Source of the DNA: Trichocoleus sp. FACHB-40
GTDB lineage: Bacteria > Cyanobacteriota > Cyanobacteriia > Cyanobacteriales > FACHB-T130
Direction of reading: 5' to 3'
Length of the DNA stretch: 64,000 nt
Assembly: GCF_014695915.1 (NCBI RefSeq)
Contig: NZ_JACJPF010000035.1
Location: forward strand, 62,001 to 126,000
Shown: positions 10,769 through 61,509 of the stretch, piece after piece
Layout of the letters: each line of letters opens with the position of its first letter
How positions within the stretch are numbered: position 1 is the first letter of the stretch
Notes under the pieces: model-generated
Told to the model about the DNA's origin: nothing
The model's input: the letters and a program-made list of their open reading frames with translations, nothing else
Databases searched by the model: none
Translations under genes and position numbers: made by a program

Positions 10769-10825
10769 TCAATGCCCTGCCGATCTTTACAAGTTCCATT
10801 TTCTGACCTTTTCGACAGTCGCGTT

Positions 10826-11947
10826 ATGCAACCAGCAGTTAAACCTGACCAATCCCCAGCAATCGATTCCCCGAAACACGGCTTGCCTGTCACGATCATT
10901 ACAGGTTTCCTTGGCAGCGGCAAGACCACGCTCCTCAACCACATCTTAAGCAATCAGGAAGGCGTGAAAACCGCTGTTCTGGTCAATGAATTTGGTGAAA
11001 TCGGCATTGACAATGAACTGATTGTCACCACCGGAGAAGATATGGTGGAGTTGAGTAACGGTTGTATCTGCTGCACCATTAATAACGATTTGGTTGAGGC
11101 AGTTTACAAAGTTCTGGAACGCGAAGACAAAATAGATTATCTGGTAGTCGAAACAACCGGACTCGCAGATCCTTTGCCAGTTGCACTGACCTTTTTGGGG
11201 ACGGAACTGCGAGACATGACCCGCCTGGATTCTATTATCACGGTGGTAGATTCAGAAAATTTCAGTCTCGATTTGTTCAACAGCGAAGCCGCCACCAGCC
11301 AGATTACCTATGGTGATATTATTCTACTAAACAAAGCAGATTTGGTAGATGAAGCTGACTTGGATTCGCTGGAAGTTAGAATTCGGGACATGAAAACTGA
11401 TGCCAGAATTCTGCGAACCGCACGCGCACAGGTGTCATTGCCTTTGATTCTCAGCGTCGGTTTGTTTGAGTCTGACAGGTATTTAGAGGTTGAATCGGAA
11501 CACGACCACCACGACCACGACCATCACGATCATCACGACCATCACGATCATAGTGCTTGCGATCATGAACATGATGTTTGCACTCATGACCACGACCACG
11601 ACCATCACCACCACTCGCACCACCTGGAAAATGACGGGTTTACCTCAATTTCCTTTGAAAGCGACAAGCCTTTTGCTATCAAGAAGTTCCAAAATTTCTT
11701 AGATAATCAATTGCCTTCTACCGTCTTCCGTGCCAAAGGGATTCTTTGGTTTGACGAAAGCCCCAGACGGCATATTTTCCACCTCTGCGGCAAGCGCTTT
11801 AGTATTGAGGATGAAGATTGGAAAGGTCAACCGAAAACCCAGCTGGTGCTGATTGGTCAGGATTTAGATAAAGAAACCCTGCGCGACCAAATCCAGAAAT
11901 GTGTCTGTCTCCCCTCTGCAAGTCGTGGCAAAGGGTTCGGAAAGTAG
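10826..11947 (+). CDS. CobW/COG0523 GTPase with His-rich metal-binding segment
   Basis: 373 residues from ATG 10826; an in-frame ATG at 10772 would add 18 poorly conserved residues. Walker A is GFLGSGKT at 27-34, the COG0523 metal motif CxCC is Cys80-Ile-Cys-Cys83, and a GTP-specificity NKAD follows (LLNKADLVD). Residues about 225-267 (11500-11626) are almost pure His/Asp, about twenty His, then the CobW C-terminal domain ending in a basic tail. The family comprises G3E GTPases that act as metal chaperones or insertases (Zn, Co, nitrile hydratase activators); the His tract suggests zinc or another divalent ion. It is divergent from cysS. Confidence 0.92.
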   Translation: MQPAVKPDQSPAIDSPKHGLPVTIITGFLGSGKTTLLNHILSNQEGVKTAVLVNEFGEIGIDNELIVTTGEDMVELSNGCICCTINNDLVEAVYKVLEREDKIDYLVVETTGLADPLPVALTFLGTELRDMTRLDSIITVVDSENFSLDLFNSEAATSQITYGDIILLNKADLVDEADLDSLEVRIRDMKTDARILRTARAQVSLPLILSVGLFESDRYLEVESEHDHHDHDHHDHHDHHDHSACDHEHDVCTHDHDHDHHHHSHHLENDGFTSISFESDKPFAIKKFQNFLDNQLPSTVFRAKGILWFDESPRRHIFHLCGKRFSIEDEDWKGQPKTQLVLIGQDLDKETLRDQIQKCVCLPSASRGKGFGK

Positions 11948-11984: not shown

Positions 11985-12067
11985 TATAGCGTTTCTCAGT
12001 TGGGTCGAATACATTGCGATTCTAACGTTTGGTAGGGACATGGCAATGCCATGTCCCTACAGATGTA
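11985..12067 (-). repeat. Truncated copy of MITE-like repeat (see 30005-30113)
   Basis: The sequence starts TATAGCGTTTCTCAGTTGGG and contains the perfect hairpin GTAGGGACATGGCA / TGCCATGTCCCTAC (12032-12045 and 12047-12060). It matches the reverse complement of 30005-30113 along its length, with scattered mismatches, but stops at ACAGATGTA, so the second terminal inverted repeat is missing. It lies just upstream of dtd. Confidence 0.75.
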
Positions 12068-12084
12068 ATGACTAATGACTAATT

Positions 12085-12537
12085 ATGCGCGTTGTCGTTC
12101 AGCGAGTTAAATCATCTCAAGTTGAGGTTGCAGGTAAAGTTATCGGCAAAATTGGGCGAGGACTTAACTTACTCGTAGCCATTGCCGATACGGATACCGA
12201 AGCAGAACTTGACTGGATAGCGCGAAAATGTCTGGAATTACGCTTATTTCCAGATGAGGAAAATGGGACGGGACGCTGGGAAAAATCAATTCAAGAAATC
12301 GGGGGCGAACTGTTAGTAATTAGCAAGTTCACCCTCTACGGAGATTGTCGCAAAGGTCGCCGCCCTTCCTTCGACCGTTCAGCTGCACCAGATGTTGCCA
12401 GAAAGCTTTACGAACAGTTTGTTGAGAAATTGCGCCAAAGTGTGCCAGTAGAAACTGGTGAATTTGGGGCGATGATGCAGGTAGCAATTGAGAATGATGG
12501 CCCTGTTACTTTGCTGCTGGAAAGAGAAGCATCTTAG
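12085..12537 (+). CDS. dtd: D-aminoacyl-tRNA deacylase
   Basis: 150 residues, the usual size of DTD1. It hydrolyses D-amino acids (and glycine) mis-attached to tRNA, a chiral proofreading step in translation. Seen: N-terminal [15 protein letters not shown], the SxxFTL motif as SKFTLYGDC near residue 79, and the NxGPVT motif as [10 protein letters not shown] near the C terminus; both motifs form the active site at the dimer interface. Single gene between a repeat and a convergent gene. Confidence 0.97.
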
Positions 12538-26323: not shown

Positions 26324-26469
26324 ATTTTTAACGCAAAGGGTGCAAAGGTTTACGCAAAGGTACGCAAAGTAAAAGATAATATTCTGCCTAATCCGCTTAG
26401 TTTTGCGGTAGTTTACGTTAAAGAAACCTTGACAAGTTGTGGAATTTATAGTTTAATATAAGAGGATTG

Positions 26470-28219: not shown

Positions 28220-28270
28220 AAATTTCCTGCTCTAGGGCATGGAATTGCCATGCCCTAGAGCAGGAAATTT
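28220..28270. repeat. Perfect 23-bp-arm palindrome
   Basis: AAATTTCCTGCTCTAGGGCA plus TGG (28220-28242) is exactly complementary to 28248-28270, with a 5-base loop AATTG. A transcript would form a very stable hairpin, ending in TTTTG on the plus side. It may be a dispersed palindromic repeat or a bidirectional terminator. Confidence 0.85.
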
Positions 28271-29089: not shown

Positions 29090-29953
29090 TTAGCTTGCTG
29101 TTATGCGCGATCGCAGTTCATCCAAAGAATTTACCGTTTTGATTGCTTGCGCGATCGCTTTCAATCTTTCCACATCCTGAATATTAGAGATTTCCGGCAT
29201 TAGCTGTAAGCCCTCAGTGCCGAATTTTAACTCTAAAGCGAGTTCAATACCTGACAGCATCCCCTGCTGCATCCCTAGTTGTTGTCCTTCTCTTAAAATC
29301 TCTTGATACCAAGGAGATTCCCTTAACACAGCCATATCCCACCTCATAATCTGTTGTACTAAACGAGTTTCTAAGACGAAACCAGCAAAGAATGCTAACA
29401 GAGGTTCTAGCTCGTTTAACTGCTCATCATCTCTTAGACACTGTACGGCGCGTCTGACTACAGACTCCTCACCTCCACCCCTCAACATTGGCACAAAAGG
29501 TAGTAAAGATGGTAGTGATGGTTGAAAAGCAAGTTCAGCGTCTACTTCCCAGAGATTAATTACTCGATAATCTTGACGCGATCGCAACCCCATAAATTCA
29601 GAGTTCTAGCGTGAGACTACAACTGTTTCTGAGGGTTGCCTAATATTAATCAGCACCGGATAAACTGGCAAGTTGTACTTTTATTCTGCTAGTGCTGCAT
29701 AAGCCCACATCCGCTTGGGCATCCGAAGTTGATAGTTTAATTGTATCTCGTTAAGCACTAAAAAGTCGCGGTGTTCCCGGCTATTCGCTTTTACCAAAAC
29801 ATCACTTTCACGGCTGAGCCACTGGAATTGTGAATCAAGAAATTCTCCAGCTACGATGTCGGGGTTTTGTTTCACCCATTGCACCCAGCCAGTCTTCGCC
29901 AAACTGATTAAACGTTTGCTGCCAATATCTGCGGCTTTTGCCATAGATTGCAA
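29090..29953 (-). pseudogene. Rpn-family (PD-(D/E)XK nuclease/transposase-like) gene with two in-frame stops
   Basis: One minus-strand frame runs from ATG 29953 to the stop at 29090 (about 287 codons) but is broken by TAA at 29681-29683 and TAG at 29606-29608. Reading through gives a continuous protein: ...MWAYAALAE, stop, KYNLPVYPVLINIR...VSR, stop, NSEFMGLRSRQDYRV... The N-terminal part has RESDVLVKA and FLVLNEIQLNY, the D/E-x-Q core of PD-(D/E)XK nucleases of the Rpn/DUF4351 type abundant in cyanobacteria. The C-terminal third has the GMQQGMLSG-type repeats of the family. Both stops are single-base changes from likely sense codons, so this is a young pseudogene. Confidence 0.8.
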
Positions 29954-30004
29954 TGTAATTAAGTAGATAGACGTAAAACACTCTGTATATAAAAACCGTG
30001 TTTC

Positions 30005-30113
30005 TATAGCAACTCAAGGGTTGGGTGCGATACATCTGTAGGGACATGGAAATCAAAAAGTCCCTACCAACATTAGAAGCGCAATATATTCTACCCAACT
30101 GAGAAACGCTATA
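30005..30113 (+). mobile_element. 109-bp MITE-like element with terminal inverted repeats
   Basis: Ends are TATAGCAACTCAAGGGTTGGGT... and the reverse complement of ...ACCCAACTGAGAAACGCTATA, imperfect inverted repeats of about 30 bp both starting TATAGC. In the middle GTAGGGAC and GTCCCTAC form an inner stem. It encodes nothing. A truncated copy in the other orientation is at 11985-12067, which shows it is dispersed. The mobilising transposase is not in the window. Confidence 0.7.
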
Positions 30114-30148
30114 TACACAGAGTATTTTACGTTTATTTTGTGTGCTAC

Positions 30149-31108
30149 TTACCAATTCCACATGATCGGATTATCATCCAAATGGTCGGTGACAATTCGC
30201 CCAATTGCGTCAATTTCTTGCACGTCATCAGCAGATAAATTAATATCACCTGCTTTAGCATTGTCTACGGCTTGTTGCTCGTTTCTTGCACCTGCGATCG
30301 CATTCCCCTGTGGTTGGGCAATTAACCAAGCTAAAGCTAACTGAGCTAGGCTACACTGATGGCGTTCGGCAATCGGACGTAGTTTGTCTAAAGCTGACTG
30401 AGCGCGATCGTAATTCTCTCCTTGAAAGAGTTTATTTTTAGCACGGTTATCTTGGGGGTCGAATTTATGTCCTGGTTCAAATTTCCCAGTTAATAATCCT
30501 TGAGCAAGAGGAGAATAGGCAACGATGGAAATATTGTTTTCGACGCAGTAAGGAGTTAAATCTTTTTCTACCGAACGCCAAAATAGAGAATAAGGCGGTT
30601 GCAAACTATCAATGCGTCCATATTGAGCGGCTTCTTCTAATTGAGTGCGGTTGAAATTAGAAACGCCGATTGTGCGAATTTTACCTTGTTCTTTCAGATG
30701 GTTCAAAGCGTTCATTGTCTCCTCAATGGGGACAATTTCACTTTTAAATGTGCCAGCAGGCCAGTGAATTTGGTATAAATCGATGTAATCGGTGTTTAGG
30801 TTTTTGAGAGAGCGAGCGCACGCCTCTATCACTTGGTCATATTTGAGATGGTTGGCAAACACCTTTGTGGCATACACTGCTTTGTCGCGCACATCTGATA
30901 GGGCTTGGGCTACAATCTGCTCAGAGTGTCCTTCTCCGTAGACTTCAGCGGTATCAACTGTTGTGATACCAGCATCAAACGCCGCCCGTATTGCTTTTAT
31001 ACTGTCCGCATCTTCAATTCCCACCCACATCTTTTTGCCAGCTTGCCATGTACCCATGATGATAGGCGTGATTTGGATTTCGGAAGTGCCAAGCGATCGC
31101 GTTTGCAT
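30149..31108 (-). CDS. Aldo/keto reductase
   Basis: 319 residues, (beta/alpha)8 NAD(P)H-dependent oxidoreductase. The catalytic tetrad is visible: Asp in TTVDTAEVYG, Tyr in the same AEVYGEGHSE, Lys in YATKVF, His in LYQIHWP. Also GVSNFN, YSPLAQGLLTGKF and the cofactor-binding end (GNAIAGARNEQQ). It belongs to the YajO/YhdN-type AKR group. Substrate unknown; general aldehyde detoxification is likely. Divergent from the DUF1802 gene 80 bp away. Confidence 0.93.
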   Translation of the reverse strand: MQTRSLGTSEIQITPIIMGTWQAGKKMWVGIEDADSIKAIRAAFDAGITTVDTAEVYGEGHSEQIVAQALSDVRDKAVYATKVFANHLKYDQVIEACARSLKNLNTDYIDLYQIHWPAGTFKSEIVPIEETMNALNHLKEQGKIRTIGVSNFNRTQLEEAAQYGRIDSLQPPYSLFWRSVEKDLTPYCVENNISIVAYSPLAQGLLTGKFEPGHKFDPQDNRAKNKLFQGENYDRAQSALDKLRPIAERHQCSLAQLALAWLIAQPQGNAIAGARNEQQAVDNAKAGDINLSADDVQEIDAIGRIVTDHLDDNPIMWNW

Positions 31109-61206: not shown

Positions 61207-61366
61207 ATTACGTAATTGACAAGTTTTTCTTAGGCTCCCTGGGAAAAGGGCTTCGGGCGATCTTCGATGTGAGCTACATAAAGTGAGATCCCCCTTTGCC
61301 TCCATTAAAAGGCAGGGTGGTTTCATACAATCGAAGAAAATATCGTATCGTAAATTGCGACATTTT

Positions 61367-61395
61367 GTAGGGGCATGGCAATGCCATGCCCCTAC
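61367..61395. repeat. GTAGGGGCATGGCA hairpin
   Basis: GTAGGGGCATGGCA (61367-61380) and TGCCATGCCCCTAC (61382-61395), 14-bp perfect arms around one A. Same type as 12032-12060 (GTAGGGACATGGCA). Intergenic. Confidence 0.8.
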
Positions 61396-61509
61396 CGCCA
61401 ACCGAAATCAACGTTACAGAATTTTCTTTTAACAAATGCAACCACCCTGCTTTGCCTCCCTAGGAAGGAGGGTAGTATGCCAGTAGCTTAGACTTGACAA
61501 CCAAATATT

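Follow-up and report, generated by a model that had tools for sequence, protein, structure and literature searches.

The element at positions 30005-30113 of the window, by which we mean the whole 64-kb stretch of DNA analysed, is very probably a non-autonomous MITE of the IS630 family (Tc1/mariner superfamily), belonging to an old family whose GTAG-type core serves as a landing site for an IS4-like element. The preliminary description had called it MITE-like, and this identity was borne out: the element is non-coding, about 119 bp long in its family form, bounded by inverted ends, present in dozens of dispersed copies and inserted at a 2-bp target, and its ends are akin to those of IS630 elements. 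As a MITE it is ordinary; what it adds is a family mapped together with its empty sites, a transposase class inferred for it and copies common to genera. Its palindromic core offers a natural, many-site test of DNA-symmetry recognition by an IS4-type transposase, and a place where small elements stack and swap halves in gene-free DNA.

Structure of the two copies in the window

The genome searched (G000) comprises 6.38 Mb in 126 contigs, and the window corresponds to C56:62001-126000. The first copy, on the forward strand, is present as had been described, with a length of 109 bp and imperfect terminal inverted repeats that begin with TATAGC. It opens with TATAGC and closes with GCTATA; the left repeat, TATAGCAACTCAAGGGTTGGGTGCGATACAT, occupies 30005-30035 (forward strand) and the right one, TATAGCGTTTCTCAGTTGGGTAGAATATATT, 30083-30113 (reverse strand), and each represents the genome-wide pattern of its end. 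The two repeats are offset by one base, match without gaps at 13 of the 30 outer bases, and pair when the DNA is folded as a single strand (MFE -16.7 kcal/mol, z -4.2, equalled by 0 of 200 shuffles). The outermost TA on both sides is presumed to be the target duplication. An alignment of 30 loci suggested a family consensus of 119 bp, to which this copy is 88% identical and of which it is a shortened variant.

The inner palindrome attributed to the first copy exists (30038-30067), but in a damaged state: only the outer eight pairs remain (30038-30045 with 30060-30067; GTAGGGAC ... GTCCCTAC), the centre having been replaced. It has a half-and-half look, with GTAGGGACATGG joined to AATCAAAAAGTCCCTAC, and in the damaged palindrome of another copy (L003, C125:43314) GGGGCTTTTTGATT is joined to GCTATGCCCCTA; both hint at an exchange between two palindrome types. 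The first copy lies within a 19-bp inverted repeat spanning 29971-30132 (left arm 29971-29989, forward; right arm 30114-30132, reverse; 17 of 19 bases matching), and therefore its insertion was probably into one arm of a stem-loop. The exact 17-base form of this flanking repeat was found at one of 321 loci, namely that of the first copy itself (L001). No empty site for this copy was found in the related genomes G003 and G004, where the locus diverges over about 2 kb. A 108-aa frame that runs through it (29835-30161) had no family match and was taken as chance rather than as a gene.

The reverse-oriented second copy, said to lack one end, was confirmed at 11985-12067 (reverse strand), between a CobW-domain gene (10772-11947) and a D-aminoacyl-tRNA deacylase gene (12085-12537). 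It matches bases 27-109 of the first copy at 86%, the left end being the one lost, and its inner hairpin is as perfect as had been claimed: the intact core palindrome GTAGGGACATGGCAATGCCATGTCCCTAC at 12032-12060 is a stem of 14 bp (GTAGGGACATGGCA) closed by a single-nucleotide loop. The argument that two copies 18 kb apart demonstrate mobility fails, however, since the second copy occupies the orthologous place in G003 and G004 with a nearly identical truncation (it is absent in G002); it is therefore old and inherited, and gives no evidence of recent transposition.

Family size, age and placement

Further copies, for which a genome-wide search had been proposed and whose absence would have refuted the description, are numerous. 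The 109-bp copy gave 41 matches in G000 at E<=0.001, and the consensus at least 69, made up of at least 40 element places and at least 29 reverse palindrome matches; these consensus counts are lower bounds, with 40 of 143 first-look candidates scored. At up to three mismatches, the left-end 21-mer was found at 52 genome sites and the right-end 21-mer at 68, the latter including relatives with other cores. The reversed control patterns gave 0 and 0, so the abundance of the ends is not due to chance. When up to 7 mismatches of 23 were allowed per end, 59 two-ended copies were obtained, of which 57 were kept after two overlapping ones had been dropped: 43 in G000 and 14 in G002-G004, at the loci examined. 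Exactly 119 bp was the length of 17 of the 43 copies in G000. The identity of these 43 to the consensus is 81-95% (median 88%), which implies that the family is old; it is mostly decayed.

At E<=1e-8 the consensus was found in four of 60 genomes (G000, G002, G003 and G004), all of one taxonomic family. At this threshold there was no match in G001, which belongs to the same taxonomic family as G000, or in 55 genomes outside it, and plasmid and phage collections gave none at E<=1e-3. Several copies are shared by descent, as judged from matching flanks: the one at C66:190559 is common to G000 and G002, and at least two more (L265/L275 and L269/L272) are common to G003 and G004. With the element removed, 2 of 41 sites (two of the 43 copies were left out because of short flanks) fall in an open frame of 150 codons or more, compared with 138 of 164 positions 400-500 bp away. 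This result shows a strong absence of the MITE from genes, whether by targeting or by selection.

Insertion target and kinship with IS630 elements

Both outer ends carry TA in 34 of the 43 copies in G000, and longer direct repeats do not exceed chance. The target-site duplications that the preliminary description had proposed to look for were found as a 2-bp target in empty sites, which were sought with joined flanks in relatives, at loci chosen by eye among the matches listed. Two extra bases were present at three of three cleanly aligned copies (five alignments) among the matches listed. For the copy at C66:190559 the junction can be aligned so that they read TA in both empty sites (G003:C4, TTCC-TA-ACTTC; G002:C36, CTCA-TA-AATTG), this being a manual gap placement one to three bases away from the BLAST gap. 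No TA is readable in the relatives at the other two of the three clean loci: the two bases are CT and TT in G003 and G004 for the copy at C66:69089, and of ambiguous identity in G003 for the copy at G004:C47. The copy at C107:6201 (L022) aligns to empty sites in G002-G004 with no simple 2-bp difference, and the L067 and L004 matches gave no full empty site. The empty sites of these other copies, and not the second copy in the window, show the mobility of the family.

A 2-bp target is consistent with the IS630/Tc1-mariner elements, as is the case for ISY100, a cyanobacterial IS630 element of Synechocystis that is described as inserting into TA and duplicating it (PMC2170065). The likeness extends to imperfect inverted ends (24 bp in ISY100, about 30 bp in the MITE), to the cyanobacterial host and to the DDE_3-type transposase, which is present in the IS630 elements sharing the MITE ends. 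Unlike ISY100, the present MITE has no gene and has TATAGC... ends, and no full-length parent was found for it.

As to the suggestion that an IS might share the TATAGC ends, two IS630 elements have the outer 14 or 11 bases in common with the MITE, but neither matches a complete end. One of them (L302, G002:C60) is 1024 bp long with ends TATAGCGTTTCTCA..., the first 14 bases of which are identical to the MITE right end, and overall its ends agree with those of the MITE at 20 and 22 of 31 positions. Its transposase matches the profiles DDE_3 (115 bits) and NF033545 IS630 (119 bits), with HTH_32 just below the cut-off; it is split over two frames and may therefore be inactive. The other, an IS630 element of G000 (L086; 1033 bp, broken frames), has ends TATAGCAATTCTC with 11 terminal bases common to the MITE left end. 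Since the inner parts of their ends differ from those of the MITE, L302 and L086 are kin of the parent rather than proven parents. Of the DDE_3 matches in G000, L086 and L083 are bounded by TATAGC ends on both sides and L091 on one side; a full match is seen in none of them. An autonomous IS630 element with a whole end of about 30 bp was found neither among the nine DDE_3 matches of G000 nor at 30 loci (of 60 matches) in 10 further genomes; about a third of the IS630 loci examined lacked any pair of ends. Among 82 loci, pairs of TATAGC-type ends that face each other at a distance above 300 bp were considered as traces of an autonomous parent in G000 and ruled out: they proved to be two independent short copies (L002/L013) or else weak matches with 6-7 mismatches.

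In the mechanism that we propose, an IS630 transposase from an element with TATAGC...TTCTC-type ends would bind the inverted ends of the MITE, cut it out and paste it into TA, which would be duplicated; the MITE would thus be mobilised in trans, presumably by cut-and-paste. Its core is a GTAG-type palindrome module common to other repeat families, and here the IS4-like element and its short derivatives land by preference, at or near the centre, duplicating 9-10 bp. The sequence gives no hint that the IS630 transposase depends on this palindrome. Nezha, reportedly described by Zhou et al. in 2008, is likewise a MITE family of cyanobacteria. For Anabaena sp. 90, 147 MITEs are given (PMC3542288).

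Two other origins of the repeat were weighed. Like a REP, the core palindrome starts with the GTAG tag, and it also occurs without the present MITE; moreover, GTAG-15 dimers are described as lying inside TATAGGA...TCCTATA palindromes in Anabaena variabilis (PMC3733652). These points would suit a REP/REPIN-like repeat moved by a single-strand (RAYT, IS200/IS605-type) transposase, with the TATAGC arms as old flanks. Such an origin is nevertheless very unlikely, as the duplicated unit is the whole of about 119 bp with both TATAGC ends included, the empty sites reveal a 2-bp target, which RAYT elements are not known to make, and the GTAG of the core pairs with a CTAC at the opposite end, so that the tag is paired at both ends rather than unpaired at one. 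We regard it as extremely unlikely that the repeat functions as RNA or in transcription (as a terminator, mRNA stabiliser or regulator), having multiplied by chance and been kept by selection. Its scarcity in frames of at least 150 codons and the retention of the second copy, upstream of the deacylase gene, in three genomes would agree with such a function, but avoidance of genes is equally expected from selection against broken genes, and the only Rfam matches in the window are two tRNAs. Furthermore, compensatory changes are not clear: within the MITE family 500 palindrome pairs were counted versus 485 expected from shuffling, the best of 500 shuffles also reaching 500. Changes in the palindrome are thus hardly compensated, and selection on the hairpin itself is not apparent. 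An IS630-type MITE remains the reading that we prefer, and the palindrome is discussed below as its core.

The core palindrome and the IS4-like element

The core palindrome GTAGGGACATGGCANTGCCATGTCCCTAC occurs at at least 78 genome sites (up to three mismatches; reversed control 0) and is also found in three other repeat families, one of them within the window. There, a palindrome module outside the TATAGC family (GTAGGGGCATGGCAATGCCATGCCCCTAC, 61367-61395) is surrounded by a different MITE-like element (61313-61449) with ends CAGGGTGGTTTCATA ... GCAACCACCCTG. Among the matches listed, 20 palindrome sites that were not strong MITE hits were compared on both flanks with the halves of four families. 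Seven (L125, L130, L132, L135, L136, L139 and L141) were of the TATAGCAATCCTA type, which has only the outermost bases in common with the present MITE; two (L131 and L138) were of the GGACTTA(G/C)GCAGTTAATTAG type, three (L133, L137 and L140) resembled the element at 61313-61449, and four carried the left half of the present MITE family, clearly in L127-L129 and weakly in L126. L123 had its own ends, L134 and L142 were in no named family, and the last of the 20, L124, is a hybrid. The variants ACACGG/CCGTGT and GGGGC/GCCCC keep the pairing between families.

Two hybrids, L124 (C74:9932) and L045 (C79:29974), have a half of the present MITE and a half of the 61313 type on either side of the palindrome. 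The half scores are 31 and 32 for L045 and 18 and 34 for L124, compared with a median of 9 and a 95% point of 18 for random stretches of the same loci, which themselves contain these families; the weak side of L124, equal to that 95% point, rests on reading by eye. Both loci look as if two families had recombined at their common palindrome.

In G000 an IS4-like element has this palindrome as its main target. At C125:206342, C57:12416, C66:55552, C92:66434 and several contig ends, the palindrome is split at its centre by this element, the ends of which are CATTGGTGTCAACTTAA. When ends with up to two mismatches were considered, an arm (GTAGGG[AG], up to one mismatch, within 26 nt) lay beside 27 of 31 IS4-like ends versus 2 of 31 control positions 54-80 nt away. 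A scan of public genomes by end pattern (up to one mismatch), blind to the target, yielded at least 111 stretches. The records were mainly cyanobacterial, with five others among the 80 matches listed (three Chlamydiae, one Blastocatellia and one of the PS1 clade), and the arm was present at 79 of 154 distinct ends versus 7 of 154 controls among the matches listed. In these arm counts the two ends of a single insertion are counted separately.

Insertion sites were rebuilt by trying duplication lengths of 8-10 and dropping pairs with more than one mismatch, which left 7 sites in G000 and 42 elsewhere. Among the matches listed, the duplication is 9 bp in 43 of the 49 paired sites and 10 bp in six. 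It lies at or near the palindrome centre, and the duplicated centres differ widely (GGCANTGCC, AGCANTGCT, ACAGCTGTG, GCATCCTTGC and GTTTGAAAC). At least 11 of 13 palindrome pairs were present in 5 of 7 rebuilt empty sites in G000 and in 12 of 42 elsewhere, among the matches listed, whereas none of the shifted positions (42 and 252, respectively) reached this number. As about half of the public ends lack the arm and 30 of the 42 public sites are not strong palindromes, the preference for the palindrome is strong, not absolute. The frequency of GTAGGG beside the ends in G000 could also mean that these arms are the outer ends of the IS4-like element itself, a bare palindrome being an excised or collapsed relic; this is very unlikely, however, because armless flanks with an exact 9-10 bp duplication occur at L108, L120, L213 and L189 and the arm sequences vary widely among sites.

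Taking the palindrome, then, as a target, the element that lands in it is mostly small: the paired IS4-like elements measure 111-776 bp, with one exception of 1413 bp, among the matches listed, and the 111 stretches obtained held no paired element 900-2400 bp long with a 250-codon frame. Among the matches listed, one transposase stretch was seen beside such an end, on the Nostoc sp. UHCC 0926 plasmid NZ_CP117772 (L092). Its 276 aa score 109.4 bits with NF033592 IS4 (cut-off 115) and 22.6 bits with PF01609 (cut-off 23), and short frames at the starts of contigs C108 and C73 of G000 resemble its tail. The IS4 family duplicates 9-12 bp of target, a range that includes the 9-10 bp of this second element. 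We infer that its transposase is of the IS4 type and may recognise symmetry.

A search of titles and abstract openings, largely outside subscription journals, found no description of an IS4-like element paired with a MITE palindrome. Elhai et al. in 2008 are said to have described very small repeats, some of them embedded in mini-transposons of Nostoc. REP palindromes are known targets of IS, and ISRm22, of the IS4 family, is described as inserted at their axis in Sinorhizobium meliloti (PMC1525189); there, as here, an IS4-type element lands at the centre of a repeated palindrome. In contrast to what is described for ISRm22, the present palindromes often lie inside MITEs and vary in sequence by site, and the two-ended inserted copies are mostly short derivatives. 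The A. variabilis repeats resemble ours, by description, in that a GTAG-tagged palindrome is nested in a longer TATAG-ended one; their outer sequence is different, and the cited part of that report describes no IS insertion (PMC3733652). As IS4 elements at REP palindromes and GTAG repeats in MITE-like palindromes have each been published, their pairing here is a new instance and not a new kind.

A wider reading, which we put forward tentatively as possible rather than probable, is that the GTAG palindrome amounts to a portable landing pad, spread into MITE families partly by recombination, that is, by family exchange at the palindrome itself as in the hybrids L045 and L124. This pad would be used by a symmetry-recognising IS4-like element that, with its own short derivatives, would live largely off such pads across cyanobacteria. 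If true, the elements would be nested in three layers, each of them keeping the following one away from genes.

Other repeats were noted in passing. At 28220-28270 the window contains a 23-bp perfect palindrome (AAATTTCCTGCTCTAGGGCATGG / CCATGCCCTAGAGCAGGAAATTT, 5-nt loop) that is similar, in its centre, to the GGGCATGG...CCATGCCC core. MITEs of further types, in which TATAGCGGTTCTCGGTTGGATGAGG-like ends enclose other cores, were seen at L039 (C80:59095-59338), L071, L073, L074 and L077; at L039, one such MITE has inserted at a TATA stretch within a copy of the present family. An element beginning GGGAGCATCCCGGTTTTGCGC occurs at L034 (C67:19398), L064 and L090, and at L034 it has inserted into a MITE copy, close to the palindrome. 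A stretch of about 48 bp at 26325-26372, with many recurrences in G001, G003 and G004, is another intergenic dispersed repeat. Finally, the genome is marked as cyanobacterial by the HIP1 octamer GCGATCGC, of a kind linked to cyanobacteria, which occurs 69 times in the 64 kb, versus 0.65 expected from composition.
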